Part shown: positions 57,948-64,000 of the stretch, one piece after another | Numbering within the stretch: the first letter of the stretch is position 1 | Layout: every line of letters begins with the position of its first letter | DNA from: Paracoccus thiocyanatus | GTDB taxonomy: Bacteria; Pseudomonadota; Alphaproteobacteria; Rhodobacterales; Rhodobacteraceae | Length of the DNA: 64,000 bases | Assembly (NCBI RefSeq): GCF_900156255.1 | Contig: NZ_FTMK01000008.1 | Span: forward strand, 62,001 to 126,000 | Direction: 5' to 3' | Translations under genes and position numbers: made by a program | Notes under the pieces: model-generated | The model's input: the letters and a program-made list of their open reading frames with translations, nothing else | Database searches by the model: none | What the model was told of the DNA's origin: nothing

Positions 57948-59198
57948 TTAGCCGTCGCGGATTCGCGTCACCTCGCGCATCTGCCCCCCGGTCACCAGCA
58001 CCTCGGCCGGCATGGGATGGCTGATGAAATGCAGCGGGCTGGCCGTCGGCCCATAGGCGCCGCAGCCATGGATGGCGAGCAGGTCGCCCTCGTCCAGCCG
58101 CGGCAGCAGGACGCCGCCCCCCAGCTTGTCGATCGAGGTGCAGAGCGGCCCGGATATGTCTTGCTTTTCCTGGGGCCGGGTGCCGCTTTCATCGCCACCG
58201 ACGCGGTGCATGACGTAGTTGCGCCGCAGCACCATGCCGAAATTGCCCGAGGCGGCCAGGTTGGCATTCAGCCCGCCGTCGCAGATGGCGATGCGGGTGC
58301 CGCGCGATTGCTTGACCGAGACGACGCGGGTCACGAACCAGCCCGCCGGCCCGACCAGGTAGCGGCCCAGTTCCAGCACCAGCCGGGTCGCGGGAAAGCG
58401 CGCGGCAAAGGCGCCCAGTTCCGGCCCGATCCCGGCGGCGATCTCGGCCAGGTCCAGCGCGTTGTCGCCGGGATGATAGGGGATGCCCAGTCCGGCGCCG
58501 AAGATCAGCTTTTCCGGGCGCAGGTCCAGCGCGGCGCAGGTGTCGGAAAACACCTGCATGAAGATGCGCCAGTTTTCGCAGATCGCCTGGGATTTCAGGC
58601 ATTGCGTGCCGGAATAGATGTGCAGCCCGATGATGCGCAGGTTCGGCAGGGCGGCGATCTGCGGCAGGATCTCGTCCGCGTCCTCGACATCGACGCCGAA
58701 GGGGCTGGGCCGGCCGGCCATCTGGTCACCGAAGCCCTTGGGCACGCGCGCGGGCGCCAGGCGGATCAGCACCGGCTGGACGCGGCCCAGTTCGGCGGCG
58801 ACGGCATCGGCCAGCCGCGCCTCGCGCAGGCTTTCCACGACCAACTCGCCCAGGCCCGCCCGGATGGCGGCGCGCAGTTCCGTTTCGCGCTTGGCCGGGC
58901 CGGTAAAGCTGATCTTCGCCGCATCCCAGCCCGCCTCGCGCGCCAGCGCCAACTCGCCCCCCGAAGAAATGTCGAGGCAGTCCAGCCGGTCCCGCATCCA
59001 GCCCAGCAGCGCGGGATTCGGATTGCTTTTCACCGCGAAGCTGACCGCGAACCAGCGCCCCAGATGCGCGCGCAGATGCGCCAGCCGGGCCTCGATTTCG
59101 TCGGTGGCATAGACATAGGCCGGCGTGCCGAAGCGCGCCGCCGCCCCGGCCAGGTGGCGGTCAAGGTCGGCGGCCAGGTCAGTCAAGGGACTGCACAT
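57948..59198 (-). CDS. type III PLP-dependent decarboxylase (carrier-protein system type)
   Basis: A 416-residue alanine racemase-fold decarboxylase. PLP lysine K57 in FAVKSNPNPALL, an SGGEL turn (LDISSGGELALA), PYHPGDNALDL and the C-terminal dimer motif SGPLCTSIDKLGG and GDLLAIHGCGAYG. It matches the branch that works with acyl carrier proteins: BtrK (decarboxylates glutamyl-BtrI) and the exosortase A-associated decarboxylase. It starts 20 bp inside the end of an ACP gene, strong support for a carrier-bound substrate. A diaminopimelate or ornithine decarboxylase is less likely from the context. Confidence 0.85.
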   Translation of the reverse strand: MCSPLTDLAADLDRHLAGAAARFGTPAYVYATDEIEARLAHLRAHLGRWFAVSFAVKSNPNPALLGWMRDRLDCLDISSGGELALAREAGWDAAKISFTGPAKRETELRAAIRAGLGELVVESLREARLADAVAAELGRVQPVLIRLAPARVPKGFGDQMAGRPSPFGVDVEDADEILPQIAALPNLRIIGLHIYSGTQCLKSQAICENWRIFMQVFSDTCAALDLRPEKLIFGAGLGIPYHPGDNALDLAEIAAGIGPELGAFAARFPATRLVLELGRYLVGPAGWFVTRVVSVKQSRGTRIAICDGGLNANLAASGNFGMVLRRNYVMHRVGGDESGTRPQEKQDISGPLCTSIDKLGGGVLLPRLDEGDLLAIHGCGAYGPTASPLHFISHPMPAEVLVTGGQMREVTRIRDG

Positions 59199-59415
59199 AG
59201 GCCAGGATGGCGTCCACCGTGTCGAAATTCTCCAGCGTCACGTCGCCCGGCTGCACCCGCACCCCGGCCTTGTCCTCGACAAAGGCGATCAGCCCCACCA
59301 TCGCCACCGAATCCAGCATCCCGGTCGAGAAAAGCTCGGTATCGCCGTCCAGCGGCGTGTCGATGTTCAACTCGCTGCGGATATGGCGGATCAGGTCGTC
59401 CTTGCTGAGGCTCAT
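59179..59415 (-). CDS. acyl/aminoacyl carrier protein (phosphopantetheine-binding)
   Basis: A 78-residue carrier protein. The phosphopantetheine site is S36 in STGMLDSVAMVGLI, where many ACPs have DSL. It is preceded by a typical helix 1 (KDDLIRHIRSELNI) and ends YVQSLD. It overlaps the decarboxylase start by 20 bp and lies 19 bp downstream of the AMP ligase. It is therefore the carrier of the amino acid or acyl group that both neighbours act on. The start at 59415 is the only ACP-length choice. Confidence 0.9.
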   Translation of the reverse strand: MSLSKDDLIRHIRSELNIDTPLDGDTELFSTGMLDSVAMVGLIAFVEDKAGVRVQPGDVTLENFDTVDAILAYVQSLD

Positions 59416-59434
59416 GGATTCAATGCCTTTCTGG

Positions 59435-61006
59435 TCAGTTCTGCAATGCCGCCTTGGCGGCGGAAATGATGGCGGGGCGGTCCAGCTTGCCGCTGGCGGT
59501 GCGCGGCATGGCGGCCGGCCAGGAATGATAGCGCTGCGGGCGCATGTAATGGGGCATGGCGCGGGCGCAATGCGCGGCAAGCGCGGCCTCGTCGCCCTGC
59601 GGCAGATAGGTCACGACGGCATGGACGGCCTGGCCCAGTTGGGCATCCTCGACCCCGAAGGCCACCACGTCGGTGACATGACCGCTTTGCGAGATCGCGT
59701 CCTCGACCTCGGTCGGCGACAGGCGAAAGCCCAGGGTCTTGATCATCTCGTCCATGCGGCTGACGAACCACAGGTCGCCATCTTCGTCCACGCGAACCAG
59801 GTCGCCCGACCAGACCACCGGCTGATCGCCCAGCAGATGCGCCAGTTCCGGGCAGGGGCGGATCTTCTGCGCCGTCACCTCGGGCTTTTCCCAATAGCCC
59901 ATGCTGACCAGCGGCCCGGCATGGACCAGCTCGCCCTGTTCGCCGGGGCCGGCCACGCCCTGGCCGTGCTTGACGGCAAAGACCTGCGCGTTCGGGATCT
60001 GCCGGCCGATCGAGCCCATCTTGGCGGCGAATTTCGCCGGCGGCAGATAGGTCGAGCGGAACGCCTCGGTCAGCCCATACATCAGGTAGATGTCGACGCC
60101 CGGAAACACCTGCGGCAGCAATTCCAGGATGTTCGGGGGGATCTTGCCGCCGGTATTGGTGATGCGCCGCAGCGCCGGCAATTCGGTCGGCCGGTCCACC
60201 AGCAGCCGCACGATCTGGTTCCACAAGGGCGGCACCCCGGCGATTCCCGTCACCGATTCGGCCTTGGCCATGCGGATGATCTCGGCCGGCATGGTCAGCG
60301 GCTGGTGCACAACCGTCCCGCCGGTCAGCAACATGGTGGTCAGCTGGTTCAGCCCGGCGTCGAAACTGTAGGGCAGCACCGAAAGCAGCCGGTCGCTTTC
60401 GTCCAGCCCCAGGTAGTCCGCGACCGAGATGGCGCCCACGCGGATATTGCGATGGCTGAGCATCACCCCCTTGGGCGCGCCGGTCGAGCCCGAGGTGTAG
60501 ATGATCATCGCCAACCCGCGCGGGTCGGATTCGTCGGGCGCGGACGCAAGGTCGGCGGCAAGCGGCCCCCAAGGGTCCGCGCCCTGGACAAGGCCCTCGG
60601 CCTTGCCCTGAACAAGATAGGCCGTGCCCTGGGGCAGGGCATGGTCGCCCGCCAGCGCCTCTAGCACCTTGGCGGGCAGGATCGCGGCGCGCGCCCGGCT
60701 GTCGCGGGCGACATAGGCCAGTTGCGCGGGGGTCCAGCGGATGTTCACGTTGACGACGACCGCGCCGATCTTCCAGGCGCCGAACATGGCCGCGACCTCG
60801 TCGATGCCCTTGCGCAGATGCACGATCACCCGGTCGCCGGGGCGGATGCCGCGCCGGACCAGCCAGTCGGCCACGCGCCCCGCCTCGGCCGCGAGTTCGG
60901 CGAAGCTGACCGAGCGGCCCTGGTCCACCGCGGCGATCTTATCCGCGCGGGCGGGCAGGTTGTCGGCCAGCAGGCGCCACATGCTGCGGTCGAAATCGTC
61001 ACTCAT
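59435..61006 (-). CDS. AMP-forming acyl/aminoacyl ligase (exosortase-associated type)
   Basis: A 523-residue adenylate-forming enzyme. Core A3 IIYTSGSTGAPKGVM, A5 YLMYGLTEAFRS, A7 VWSGDLVRVDEDGDLWF and A10 TASGKLDRP with the catalytic Lys are all present, so activation and transfer should work. It probably activates an acid and loads it on the adjacent ACP. The family signature resembles the acyl-CoA ligase of exosortase A loci, but the ATP-activated substrate cannot be read from sequence. It overlaps the acetyltransferase gene by 8 bp. Start ATG at 61006 gives MSDDFDRSMWRLLADNL. Confidence 0.85.
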   Translation of the reverse strand: MSDDFDRSMWRLLADNLPARADKIAAVDQGRSVSFAELAAEAGRVADWLVRRGIRPGDRVIVHLRKGIDEVAAMFGAWKIGAVVVNVNIRWTPAQLAYVARDSRARAAILPAKVLEALAGDHALPQGTAYLVQGKAEGLVQGADPWGPLAADLASAPDESDPRGLAMIIYTSGSTGAPKGVMLSHRNIRVGAISVADYLGLDESDRLLSVLPYSFDAGLNQLTTMLLTGGTVVHQPLTMPAEIIRMAKAESVTGIAGVPPLWNQIVRLLVDRPTELPALRRITNTGGKIPPNILELLPQVFPGVDIYLMYGLTEAFRSTYLPPAKFAAKMGSIGRQIPNAQVFAVKHGQGVAGPGEQGELVHAGPLVSMGYWEKPEVTAQKIRPCPELAHLLGDQPVVWSGDLVRVDEDGDLWFVSRMDEMIKTLGFRLSPTEVEDAISQSGHVTDVVAFGVEDAQLGQAVHAVVTYLPQGDEAALAAHCARAMPHYMRPQRYHSWPAAMPRTASGKLDRPAIISAAKAALQN

Positions 61007-61556
61007 TCGCGGGGGCCTTCTTCTTGGCGGCAAAGATCGGCAGGCTGGGATAGATCCTGGCCGGAGAGCCGATCACCACCGAATCGGGCGGCACATTGGT
61101 CGTCACCGCGGTATTGGCGCCGATCCGCACCCGGTCGCCGATGGTGATCGGCCCCAGCACGCAGGAATTGACGCCGATGAACACGTCGTCGCCGATCACC
61201 GGCGCGCCGGGACCCATATTGGTGCCGATGGTGACGTTGTGCATCACCCCGCAGCGGTCGCCGATCACCACGTCGGGATGGATCGACAGCGAGCCCTCGG
61301 CATGGATGATGTGGAAATCGCGGCCCAGTTGCACCTGCGGCGGGATCCAGACCTTGGTCACGTTCAGCACCAGGATCTTCATCAGCGCATAAAGCTTGCC
61401 CGCCAGCCAGCGCGCCTGCGGGTTCCGCCGCTCCAGGGCCCAGCGGCCATAGCGGTGGACGGCCAGCGACACGAAGGCAGGCTCGGTCAGCGAGCGGCCG
61501 TGTCTTTCATAGTCGTCGCGCAGAGTTTCGAACATCACCATGCACTTGTTAATCAC
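60999..61556 (-). CDS. left-handed beta-helix acetyltransferase (serine acetyltransferase-like)
   Basis: A 185-residue hexapeptide acyltransferase. N-terminal helices (FETLRDDYERHGRSLTEPAFVSLAVHRYGRW) as in CysE-like and VatD-like enzymes, then HIIHAEGSLSIHPDVVIGDRCGVMHNVTIGTNMGPGAPVIGDDVFIGVNSCVLG. The His in HNVTIG is the likely base. It could acetylate a sugar or an amine from acetyl-CoA. Start is GTG at 61556 or ATG at 61541 or 61535; no clear ribosome site helps. It lies between a glycosyltransferase and the ligase, fitting glycan decoration. Confidence 0.85.
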   Translation of the reverse strand: MINKCMVMFETLRDDYERHGRSLTEPAFVSLAVHRYGRWALERRNPQARWLAGKLYALMKILVLNVTKVWIPPQVQLGRDFHIIHAEGSLSIHPDVVIGDRCGVMHNVTIGTNMGPGAPVIGDDVFIGVNSCVLGPITIGDRVRIGANTAVTTNVPPDSVVIGSPARIYPSLPIFAAKKKAPANE

Positions 61557-61582
61557 TTCGCGGAAAATCGGGTTGCCGGCCC

Positions 61583-61611
61583 CATATTCCGTTGTCGCGG
61601 CGCAAACTCAA
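61583..61611 (-). promoter_or_regulatory. candidate promoter before the acetyltransferase-ligase-ACP-decarboxylase genes
   Basis: On the minus strand TTGAGT (61606-61611), 17 bp, AATATG (61583-61588). If used it would start a separate transcript of the last four genes of the cassette. Weak match. Confidence 0.3.
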
Positions 61612-61619
61612 CCTGACTG

Positions 61620-62696
61620 TTAGGATACTTCCGGGGCCGGGTTGCGGGCCGTGGCGGCCGCGATCAGGTCCAGGGTGCGCCGCAACTGGTCCCATTCCAC
61701 CCGGTAGCCGCGGGCGGTGCCCGACCCCACCACCATGGCGTAATTCTGTCGCCAGCAATCCGTCAGCAGCTTGAGCGAGGTCGTCACCCGGTCCGCCGGC
61801 TGCAAGGTCAGCACCGTGCCGCCGGGGGCCATGGCGATGACGCCATGGGCAAGCTGGCTGCCCTCGACCCCGACGACCAGACGGGTCGCGCCGGCCGCCT
61901 GCGCCAGTTCGTCGGCATCCATGCGGTCGATGTAAAGCGTGGAAAATCCGTATTCGGCCTCCAGCCGCTCGGCGATCTCGGCCTCGTTCTCCAGGATGCG
62001 GGCATCGCCGCTGGCGCCGCGAAAGATGAAGACGCCGGGCCGCGGCGACGGATCGTGGCCGGCAAGGACGCGGGCGCGGTTTTCCTGCGCGCGGGCGCGG
62101 CGGTGGCTGTTGTTGTGCAGGTCGTCGAACAGGACCAGCTCGTCGAAATGCACGTCGCCGATGCGGCGGGGCGCCATGCCCAGCAGTTCCTCGTAGCGGG
62201 CGACATGGCCGCCCCGCGGGGGCGCCGAGGTGACGGGCGCGCCGGCGCCTTCGGCCAGCCGATAGGCCAGGCAGTCGTTCAAAAGCCAGTTGCCGAACCA
62301 GCGGTTGCCGATCCAGCTTTCGTAAAGCGCGCCCGACAGGCTTTCGCGGGGCCGCGAATAGGTCAGGCCGGAATGGCGGCGCTGGCGCAGGTGGCGGTCG
62401 GCCCCCCGCGCATGCAGCACCCCATCGACGAAATCCACGTCGCGAAACCGATAGCCCATCGTGGCGGGCGTGGGTTCGGCCGGGTTGCCGCGCATCTGCG
62501 CCAGGATGTCGGGCAGGGCGCCGAATTCGGTGCGGGCGATATGTTCGACCTGGTCGGGCAGCCAGATGCCCGGCGCGATCGCGGCCAGTTCCGGCGGGCA
62601 GATCTGCCAGCGCTCGACCGCGCCGGCAAGGAAATCCGCATGGCCGATGCCCAACAGGCGTCGCAGGCGGTTATGGATCGGTCTTAGCGAGGGCAT
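61620..62696 (-). CDS. GT61-family (DUF563) glycosyltransferase
   Basis: A 358-residue glycosyltransferase. The GT61 C-terminal features are visible: FIFRGASGDARILENEAEIAERL, FSTLYIDRMDADELAQAAG and VGVEGSQLAHGVIAMAPGGTVLTLQPADR. Bacterial GT61 enzymes add pentose or hexose to cell surface glycans. The start at 62696 gives MPSLRPIHNRLRRLLGIGHA; an upstream frame to 62846 looks non-coding. 63 bp separate it from the acetyltransferase. Its acceptor is unknown. Confidence 0.82.
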   Translation of the reverse strand: MPSLRPIHNRLRRLLGIGHADFLAGAVERWQICPPELAAIAPGIWLPDQVEHIARTEFGALPDILAQMRGNPAEPTPATMGYRFRDVDFVDGVLHARGADRHLRQRRHSGLTYSRPRESLSGALYESWIGNRWFGNWLLNDCLAYRLAEGAGAPVTSAPPRGGHVARYEELLGMAPRRIGDVHFDELVLFDDLHNNSHRRARAQENRARVLAGHDPSPRPGVFIFRGASGDARILENEAEIAERLEAEYGFSTLYIDRMDADELAQAAGATRLVVGVEGSQLAHGVIAMAPGGTVLTLQPADRVTTSLKLLTDCWRQNYAMVVGSGTARGYRVEWDQLRRTLDLIAAATARNPAPEVS

Positions 62697-62767
62697 GTCG
62701 GCTCGGCTGGCTGGGTCGGGTGGAGTTTGCGATCGCAGCGCCGCTGGTGCAAGCGCAGATCGACGCA

Positions 62768-63934
62768 TCAGCCCGGTTGCGGTTGCCCAAGCGCCGCCAC
62801 CAGCCTTTCCGCAATGGCGGCGTGGTCGCGGGCCGACAGGTGCCACAGGCAGGCGTCGCGGCGCGGATCGTCCAGGACCAGCAAAAGATTGGCCATGCCG
62901 CGCGCCGACAGCAGGTCCGAGGCGCGGCGATGCGCCTGGACCAGTTCGGGCCCATATTCGCCAAAGGCCAGCAGCACCATCGTCGCGCCGGGATTGTCGC
63001 CCAGGCGCGCGGCGGCGAAATCAGCCAGAGCCGGGCCGAAATCGCCGCCCAGTTCGGCCTTGTCGCCCCAGCCTTCCCCTGGATCCAGGTCCGAGCCGAA
63101 GACATTGGAACCCAGGGCGATGACGACGATATCCGCCCGGCGCTGGGGCAGGGCGGGCGCATCCGGGTCCCCCGGCAGGGCCAGGGAGTAAAGCCGCTCC
63201 ATCGTATGGGCGGGGTCGGCGCCGCCGTAATTGCGCAAAAGCCCGATGCCCGAGCGCGCGATCAGTCGATAATCCGAACCCAGCGCCGCAGCAGCCTGGG
63301 GTCCGAAACCGCGGCTGGTATCGGTGGCGGCAAAGATTTCCTCGGCATCGCAATCGCGGCGCTGCGCGGTGTTGCCAAAGCCGACCGTGTCGGAATCGCC
63401 GATGAACTCGATCAGCCGGGGCGGCGGCGGGGGCGGGGGCAGCGCCGCCGCCCCCTTGTCCAGGAAGAAGCCGCCGAAAGTCGCCGGCGCCGGGGATTCG
63501 CTGATCTTTTCCGCCCGGATGTCATGGACGCCGGGCGAAAGCCCGTCGATGCGCAGGTCCTTTCGGCCGGGGCGCGCAAGTTCGACTGCCTGGCCGTCCA
63601 GCGTGATGCGCCAGCGGTTGACCGCATCGTCGAAGCGCAGGGTGATCGCCGTCCCGGTGAACCGCGCCGAGGCGTGAAAGCCCGGCCATTCATGGCGCAG
63701 GCCCGGCCCCGCCGGGACCGATGCCGCGCGCCCCGTGATCGTGGCGGCAAGCGCCGTCAATCCGGGTTGGGGTTCAACCAGCCGCACCCGGATATCCGCG
63801 CCGTCGTCCAGGCGAAGCGCGGGAACCGGCGTGACCGGGCGCGGCGGGGCGGGCCAGGCATACCACGCCCCGGCGATGGCCAGCATGATCGCCAGGGCCG
63901 CGATGCCGATCCGCTCCGTCCATCCCCAGCCCAT
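62768..63934 (-). CDS. SGNH hydrolase with N-terminal beta-sandwich (CE2-like carbohydrate esterase)
   Basis: A 388-residue membrane-anchored protein: N-terminal helix (ERIGIAALAIMLAIAGAWYAWPA), a jelly-roll domain (WPGFHASARFTGTAITLRFDDAVNRWRITLDGQ), then an SGNH catalytic domain with the Ser in EFIGDSDTVGFGN, IALGSNVFG, and the Asp/His in LWHLSARDHAAIAERL. This two-domain order is that of CE2 acetyl esterases, which remove or transfer O-acetyl groups on sugars. ATG at 63934 chosen; TTG at 63985 is an alternative. First gene of the cassette. Confidence 0.8.
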   Translation of the reverse strand: MGWGWTERIGIAALAIMLAIAGAWYAWPAPPRPVTPVPALRLDDGADIRVRLVEPQPGLTALAATITGRAASVPAGPGLRHEWPGFHASARFTGTAITLRFDDAVNRWRITLDGQAVELARPGRKDLRIDGLSPGVHDIRAEKISESPAPATFGGFFLDKGAAALPPPPPPPRLIEFIGDSDTVGFGNTAQRRDCDAEEIFAATDTSRGFGPQAAAALGSDYRLIARSGIGLLRNYGGADPAHTMERLYSLALPGDPDAPALPQRRADIVVIALGSNVFGSDLDPGEGWGDKAELGGDFGPALADFAAARLGDNPGATMVLLAFGEYGPELVQAHRRASDLLSARGMANLLLVLDDPRRDACLWHLSARDHAAIAERLVAALGQPQPG

Positions 63935-64000
63935 GACCACCCCAAGACATGCCGCCGCCGATCCTGGCCAGAACCAGGCCCGCAAGTCCAGCGCGCCCTG

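Follow-up and report, generated by a model that had tools for sequence, protein, structure and literature searches.

Results

A six-gene cassette in Paracoccus thiocyanatus

We analysed a stretch of 64,000 nucleotides (the window) from Paracoccus thiocyanatus, corresponding to bases 62001-126000 of contig C8 (NZ_FTMK01000008.1) in an assembly of 3.52 Mb that is 99.92% complete. Our subject is a cassette of six minus-strand genes near the right-hand edge of the window, which code, in order of transcription, for a carbohydrate esterase, a glycosyltransferase, a left-handed beta-helix acyltransferase (LbH), an AMP-forming ligase, an acyl carrier protein (ACP) and a pyridoxal phosphate (PLP)-dependent decarboxylase. 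By map position they are as follows:

57948..59198 (-): BtrK-like fold-type III PLP decarboxylase; ATG at 59198, TTG at 59186 possible
59179..59415 (-): stand-alone ACP, 78 aa, Ser36 (PF00550)
59435..61006 (-): AMP-forming ligase, VinN-like; ATG at 61006
60999..61556 (-): LbH, serine-acetyltransferase fold; Hexapep over cut-off
61620..62696 (-): GT61 glycosyltransferase; gene caller's ATG at 62696, reading frame may begin at 62846
62768..63940 (-): CE2 carbohydrate esterase; GTG at 63940 or ATG at 63934

All six open reading frames are backed by Pfam (PLP decarboxylase, PP-binding, AMP-binding, Hexapep, GT61 and CE2_N). The genes are tightly packed, with an overlap of 8 bp between the LbH and ligase genes, one of 20 bp between the ACP and decarboxylase genes, and gaps of 71 bp (CE2/GT61), 63 bp (GT61/LbH) and 19 bp (ligase/ACP). 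An earlier note, made from the sequence of this stretch alone, had described the six genes as lying on one strand in this order, with both overlaps, a 78-residue ACP with Ser36 and a decarboxylase with Lys57. Our reading frames agree on each of these points: the overlaps follow from the ATGs at 61006 and 59198, Ser36 sits in the motif LDSVAM, and Lys57 is invariant in 15/15 aligned sequences. For the esterase, the ATG at 63934 used in that note is as good a start as the GTG chosen by the gene caller.

The decarboxylase, the ligase and the carrier protein

The decarboxylase is nearer in sequence to BtrK, its best match in the PDB (231.7 bits), than to the diaminopimelate (DAP) decarboxylases, the best of which scores 139.4 bits. 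The residue following the Cys of its GPLCT motif is Thr in 73/73 aligned cassette sequences (70 of them distinct), in 30/30 decarboxylases of exosortase-A loci and in BtrK; the same aligned position holds Glu, in a Cys-Glu motif, in 2p3e and in the LysA-like protein that a separate gene elsewhere in the window genome encodes. In DAP decarboxylases this Glu recognises the distal amino group of the substrate. The BtrK-like relationship proposed earlier is thus borne out by the PDB ranking and by the Cys-Thr residues. Free diaminopimelate is disfavoured as a substrate by these residues, and the enzyme would act on carrier-bound rather than free amino acids. Its homologues in Paracoccus versutus, P. 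denitrificans DSM 413 (90%) and Paracoccus sp. MKU1 are 89-90% identical to it.

In a quick tree of 127 decarboxylase rows, the 73 cassette rows group in one clade, apart from that of the 30 exosortase-A rows; 24 unlabelled rows were also included, one of which (L112, at a contig end) falls inside the cassette clade. BtrK and the DAP decarboxylases both lie outside the cassette clade, the branch of BtrK being long and its placement unsure. BtrK decarboxylates BtrI-S-glutamate (PMC7857480). At three loci of other Pseudomonadota (L208, L211 and L212), BtrK-like decarboxylases stand beside two or three ligase-like genes and ACP-sized small reading frames, in operons that resemble those for beta-amino-acid starter units.

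For the core of the ligase (178 residues) the top PDB match is VinN (3wv4), to which it aligns without gaps over 174 residues. By alignment, the beta13-beta14 loop is short, as in VinN; LgrA domain 2 has a two-residue insert there. The equivalents of VinN Asp230 and Arg331 are each present in 73/73 cassette ligases and also in 28/28 exosortase-A ligases (28 having been found for the 30 exosortase-A rows), and the Ser299 site is occupied by Thr in 46 and by Ser in 27 of the 73 cassette rows. Of ten other AMP-binding proteins in the window genome, seven could be aligned, three having been dropped by a motif filter; none of the seven has the Arg331 equivalent, and two, both adenylation domains of non-ribosomal peptide synthetases (NRPSs), carry the Asp230 equivalent. 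The ACP matches PF00550 at 28.5 bits (cut-off 20.8), and its Ser36 is invariant in 17/17 aligned sequences.

In PMC7756342 and PMC11253843, Asp230 of VinN is described as holding the amino group of 3-methylaspartate, and Ser299 and Arg331 its alpha-carboxyl. AfcQ, which shares this Arg, activates L-Asp at its side chain and loads it on AfcK, and AfcP then makes carrier-bound beta-alanine, a sequence of loading and on-carrier decarboxylation reconstituted with these three proteins (PMC12186527). A VinN-like ligase points to Asp or Glu being loaded through the side chain; fatty acids are disfavoured as substrates by its residues. Because the decarboxylase is nearest to BtrK, and the ligase is VinN-like and keeps the Asp/Arg pair, the trio most probably forms an aspartyl- or glutamyl-ACP linked through the side chain, which would be decarboxylated to beta-alanyl- or gamma-aminobutyryl (GABA)-ACP. 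The earlier idea of a carrier-bound, GABA-like amine put on a glycan is supported in outline, with the product refined to beta-alanyl or GABA. We favour, with modest confidence, the reading that LbH puts this acyl group on a sugar of an exopolysaccharide (EPS), with GT61 and CE2 assisting.

Recurrence of the cassette

With one genome taken per species, the decarboxylase (above 400 bits) was found in 38 of 125 Paracoccus genomes. Among 40 loci fetched from other Paracoccus genomes, 37 carry the quartet of LbH, ligase, ACP and decarboxylase and 32 carry all six genes, the three loci without the quartet holding more distant decarboxylase homologues; in view of this recurrence, the six-gene arrangement is more than chance. 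We further examined 79 named loci, drawn from the best 80 of 139 relatives. Since the gene caller left 7/79 of these without a decarboxylase call, the counts were repeated with six-frame BLAST, at bit thresholds that we set ourselves and that record presence without themselves checking adjacency. The quartet was present in 68/79 loci, the quartet plus GT61 in 62/79, all six genes in 30/79 and all but CE2 in 32/79. Counting adjacency by gene calls gave 28/79 for all six and 27/79 for all but CE2.

The quartet occurs in Gemmobacter, Rubellimicrobium, Seohaeicola, Neorhizobium, Hyphomicrobium, Devosia, Novosphingobium and Sphingobium, and also in three metagenome-assembled genomes (MAGs) outside the Alphaproteobacteria. 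Pairwise distances of five of the proteins correlate across 62 loci (Spearman 0.45-0.79, with 0/500 permutations as high), a correlation of which shared descent alone explains part. The shared distribution on which the earlier note had staked its reading is thus seen both in Paracoccus and among the named loci. As judged from these comparisons, GT61-LbH-ligase-ACP-decarboxylase is a recurrent unit with its own decarboxylase clade.

The acyltransferase, the glycosyltransferase and the esterase

The best structural model of LbH (pLDDT, the predicted local distance difference test, of 88.2, with 55-62 for the other four models) shows a serine-acetyltransferase fold and matches serine acetyltransferases. 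We rejected LbH as a serine acetyltransferase: the fold fits, but the serine motifs are missing, IHAEG and GPGAP standing where serine acetyltransferases have DHATG and DRHP. In serine acetyltransferases, residues of these two motifs bind serine. Since LbH enzymes that use acyl-ACP exist (LpxA and LpxD), this protein may, by analogy, transfer an aminoacyl group and not simply acetylate. Of the acetyltransferase named in the earlier note, the acyltransferase fold stands, and the plain acetylation role is revised to possible aminoacyl transfer.

The glycosyltransferase belongs to GT61 (PF04577, 52.9 bits against a cut-off of 27). The esterase matches CE2_N (PF17996, 56.5 bits against 27.9), and the CE2 family profile matches 2w9x at 334.9 bits. 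Its residues S183, N279, H373, C197 and C364 are invariant in 18/18 sequences, S183 and H373 being presumably the catalytic residues of the SGNH type, and its N-terminus has a membrane-like segment, as judged by eye. Two more GT61 matches, facing each other and one of them with an in-frame TAA, lie at G000:C2:92466-94258 (L217, L219).

LbH and CE2 could instead form a plain acetylation/deacetylation pair, with another enzyme passing on the aminoacyl group. Such a pair would suit the fold of LbH and its matches, under the cut-offs, to the EpsC and serine acetyltransferase profile models, and it would suit the strong relation of CE2 to acetyl xylan esterases. However, LbH keeps company with the ligase, ACP and decarboxylase where CE2 was not found (32/79 loci have all but CE2), and its gene overlaps that of the ligase by 8 bp. 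We consider this arrangement rather unlikely.

Association with exopolysaccharide genes

The flanks of the cassette in Neorhizobium vignae carry genes for Poly_export, a Bac_transf priming enzyme and GT2 glycosyltransferases, and a Wzz-like gene detected by BLAST only (Pfam matched nothing there); in Novosphingobium panipatense the flanking genes are Poly_export, Wzz and GT4. In Neorhizobium there follow an NRPS, composed of a formyltransferase, an adenylation (A) domain, a luciferase-like monooxygenase and a peptidyl carrier protein (PCP), and a phosphopantetheinyl transferase (PPTase). An NRPS 50% identical to it is encoded on contig C12 of the window genome, with a formyltransferase, an A domain with a luciferase-like insert and a PCP. 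Beside it is a single-module polyketide synthase (PKS) of domain order KS-AT-KR-DH-ACP-TE. Both are part of an EPS core:

G000:C12:82755-99978 (L220, L255): priming transferase, GT4, PPTase, NRPS, GT2, PKS, WecG-type-like glycosyltransferase

Genes resembling rml sugar genes and a gene for an RTX-repeat protein lie beside this core.

Four Paracoccus cassettes are more divergent than the rest, those of genomes G043, G058, G071 and G100. In all of these but G100, the EPS core and the cassette form one locus, which also contains Wzz-like and GMC genes; in G043, Pfam identifies a Polysacc_synt_3 flippase there as well. In G100 the NRPS is on a different contig from the cassette. The glycan context expected in the earlier note is borne out by these joint loci, by the Poly_export, priming and Wzz neighbours and by a ColD module described below.

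Among Paracoccus genomes the NRPS was counted as present above 1000 bits, a threshold of our own under which weaker matches, mostly to other NRPSs, were dropped; the count covers the NRPS only, and not the PKS or other core genes. By this measure it occurs in 64/125 genomes, that is, in 38/38 with the cassette and 26/87 without it (Fisher 4e-15, a p-value inflated by kinship, as related genomes and not independent events are counted); some of the matches with 54-58% identity may not be orthologous. In 14/79 named loci the NRPS lies within the examined flank of the cassette. These comprise 12 Rhizobiaceae/Rhizobiales, Seohaeicola and one Burkholderiales MAG, in which LbH and the decarboxylase are present and the ligase match is weak. 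Directly after the cassette of Devosia submarina comes a PKS whose domains stand in the same order (L144, 11267-17659).

A different use of the trio would be to provide the PKS/NRPS of the EPS core with a beta-amino-acyl unit, much as VinN-VinL-VinO do for a macrolactam, with no decoration of sugars. The constant presence of the NRPS in Paracoccus genomes with the cassette and its place in 14 flanks would agree with this, as would the PKS that stands beside the NRPS in the window genome and adjoins the cassette in Devosia. Yet the same NRPS is found in 26 genomes that lack the cassette, and macrolactam logic, as set out in PMC11284099, involves a second adenylation enzyme, an acyltransferase and an amidohydrolase, whereas the cassette has LbH and GT61. 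We regard such a supply route as unlikely.

The exosortase question

The earlier note had pointed to the lack of an exosortase gene, and this lack holds genome-wide, with 0 PF09721 matches in the whole window genome; exosortase as a required partner was accordingly rejected for this genome. Its description as unusual did not hold, since only 4/38 Paracoccus genomes with the cassette have an exosortase, as compared to 25/87 without it (29/125 in total; Fisher 0.037). Outside Paracoccus, an exosortase was found in 16/38 cassette genomes, the search covering 38 of 42 quartet loci with MAGs L110, L113 and L128 left out. In a phylum sample of 397 genomes, by comparison, 29/31 genomes with TIGR03099 over the cut-off have an exosortase, vs 96/397 overall, and 6/17 of those with intermediate TIGR03099 scores (300-460 bits) have one. 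These proportions show that the cassette does not follow exosortase.

A check against TIGR03098 and TIGR03099, which the earlier note had suggested, showed that both families match and that neither match is over its curated cut-off (503 bits against 592.35 for the ligase, 366.5 bits against 478.45 for the decarboxylase). By these scores, the window trio falls outside the exosortase-A equivalogs. The cassette of G043 and G058 shares a locus with an exosortase E/VPEID-CTERM gene (TIGR04162, cut-off 150; 354.9 bits and, on a protein cut by ~16 residues, 351.1 bits), and the genome of G071, where the locus is similar, lacks any exosortase. Given the two exosortase E genes, exosortase is possible as an ancestral context.

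The cassette might on this basis be seen as an exosortase-type trio minus the exosortase, with the same pathway and glycan part and with the protein-sorting half gone, a view that draws on the Asp/Arg pair shared with all 28 exosortase-A ligases and on the two divergent loci with exosortase E. It overlaps in chemistry with the reading that we favour. But the two decarboxylase groups form separate clades, BLAST found no such LbH in the nine exosortase-A loci fetched whole (of 31 genomes), and the exosortase of the divergent loci is E, not A. We judge such a loss to be improbable.

A neighbouring colitose module

The cassette is part of a run of nine same-strand genes with spacings of -20 to +71 bp, which extends beyond the edge of the window. 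Upstream of CE2, outside the window, the run continues with genes for ColD, a ColC-like short-chain dehydrogenase/reductase (SDR) and GMD; it is bordered by proS past these genes and by a cation/H+ antiporter (mnh) operon at its other end. The search for more sugar genes on the right flank, proposed in the earlier note, thus found them:

L009:5-3219 (contig C8, right of the window): GMD, ColC-like SDR, ColD; directly upstream of the esterase gene

ColD matches 2gms at 513 bits, the next family scoring 175 bits, and its SHHISTMEGG aligns to SHHIATMEGG of ColD, a His occupying the position of the PLP Lys. The gene in the ColC position codes for a GDP-fucose-synthase-like SDR. Colitose as part of the core cassette was rejected, because several species carry the six genes without colitose at the same proS-mnh site (L050, L056, L057 and L063-L065). 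In another Paracoccus genome (G106, L083), a colitose module lies near a more distant decarboxylase (43% identity) and ligase (30%).

Discussion

The pathway that we propose would run as follows. The ligase would adenylate the side-chain carboxylate of L-Asp, 3-methyl-Asp or L-Glu and load it on the phosphopantetheine of ACP Ser36, and the decarboxylase would strip the free alpha-carboxylate on the ACP to give beta-alanyl-, 3-aminoisobutyryl- or GABA-ACP. LbH would transfer the amine-bearing acyl group to a sugar of the EPS repeat, GT61 would add a sugar to the same repeat, and CE2, probably periplasmic, may trim or edit esters afterwards. A separate EPS core, with its priming transferase and PKS/NRPS pair, would build the polymer backbone, and in P. 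thiocyanatus the polymer may also receive colitose. Gene identity, residues, gene order, clade and co-occurrence are direct observations, from which we infer the substrate, decarboxylation on the ACP, the transfer by LbH, the acceptor sugar, the link to the EPS core and the role of CE2. Seen against these results, the chemistry of the earlier note is well supported in outline and its whole interpretation is partly supported.

Several observations weigh against the proposed pathway. In the ligase, the site of VinN's bulky Phe231 is Ala in the window (residue 217, counted from the ATG at 61006) and, over the 73 cassette rows, Ala 40 times and Tyr 33 times, and the Lys330 site is Phe in 73/73 cassette rows, the window included. 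The pocket therefore differs from that of VinN, and Asp and Glu are indistinguishable as substrates. The Ala/Tyr split largely follows lineage, and from the alignment it may mark two substrate classes. Fold comparison with an AlphaFold model of the ligase (pLDDT 89.9) does not single out VinN: VIA-align placed VinN with 3-methylaspartate at rank 2 (Z 49.2, root-mean-square deviation 2.0, 382 aligned), tied with aryl ligases, and VinN was absent among the 50 matches listed by Foldseek. The PDB relatives of LbH are acetyltransferases, so that it may only acetylate, and the His aligned to that of DHATG is Asn in 5/31 LbH rows. Finally, the EPS core of the window genome is on another contig than the cassette, 26 genomes have the NRPS without the cassette, and the co-occurrence figures are swollen by kinship.

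It is very improbable that the trio is an ordinary DAP, lysine or ornithine decarboxylase beside an unrelated fatty acyl-CoA ligase, a combination that we rejected in view of residues and nearest relatives: the lysA and acyl-CoA ligase models match at family level, under their cut-offs, but the decarboxylase scores far higher with BtrK and has lost the acidic residue, a separate LysA-like gene is present, the ligase has the Asp/Arg pair, and the ACP gene lies between the two enzymes.

A broader idea, which we hold only tentatively, is that a hybrid surface polymer is widespread among alphaproteobacteria, one in which an EPS with LbH-set beta-alanyl or GABA groups is combined with a PKS/NRPS-made polyketide/formyl-aminoacyl part and, in the P. 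denitrificans group, with colitose. The tie to a PKS/NRPS-bearing EPS locus was unexpected. No paper on the cassette was found in a literature search that was thin on subscription journals, and as far as searched, the GT61-LbH-ligase-ACP-decarboxylase clade, this tie and the adjoining colitose module appear to be new. The trio, named in database models solely for its association with exosortase, would thereby gain a concrete chemistry of side-chain loading and on-carrier decarboxylation, and this chemistry would be a recurrent part of EPS loci without exosortase A. If the proposal is true, free amines on the EPS are expected to alter charge, adhesion and biofilm behaviour. The organisms concerned, Neorhizobium and the relatives of Paracoccus denitrificans, are amenable to culture and mutagenesis.

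To the extent that sequence can show it, the trio resembles VinN-VinL-VinO and BtrI/BtrK in its mode of action. The systems of vicenistatin (VinN-VinL-VinO), AFC-BC11 (AfcQ-AfcK-AfcP) and the bolagladins (BolO-BolC-BolN) all combine an AMP-forming side-chain ligase, a stand-alone carrier and a PLP decarboxylase; they feed polyketide or lipopeptide assembly, whereas the partners of the cassette are GT61, LbH, CE2 and EPS genes. Butirosin biosynthesis (BtrI-BtrJ-BtrK) contributes the nearest solved relative of the decarboxylase, and differs in that BtrJ is an ATP-grasp ligase, not an AMP-forming one like that of the cassette. The GDP-colitose pathway (GMD-ColD-ColC) has its ColD, its GMD and a fucose-synthase-like SDR beside the cassette, as a separable neighbour whose presence is independent of the six genes. 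The exosortase-A trio (TIGR03098/TIGR03099) resembles the cassette in having a ligase match within ~1.5 kb of a BtrK-like decarboxylase in 28/30 loci and in the Asp/Arg residues of its ligases. It differs in that the window ligase and decarboxylase score below both cut-offs, in the separate clade of its decarboxylases and in the exosortase found in 29/31 of its genomes, and only in the cassette do LbH and GT61 adjoin the trio.

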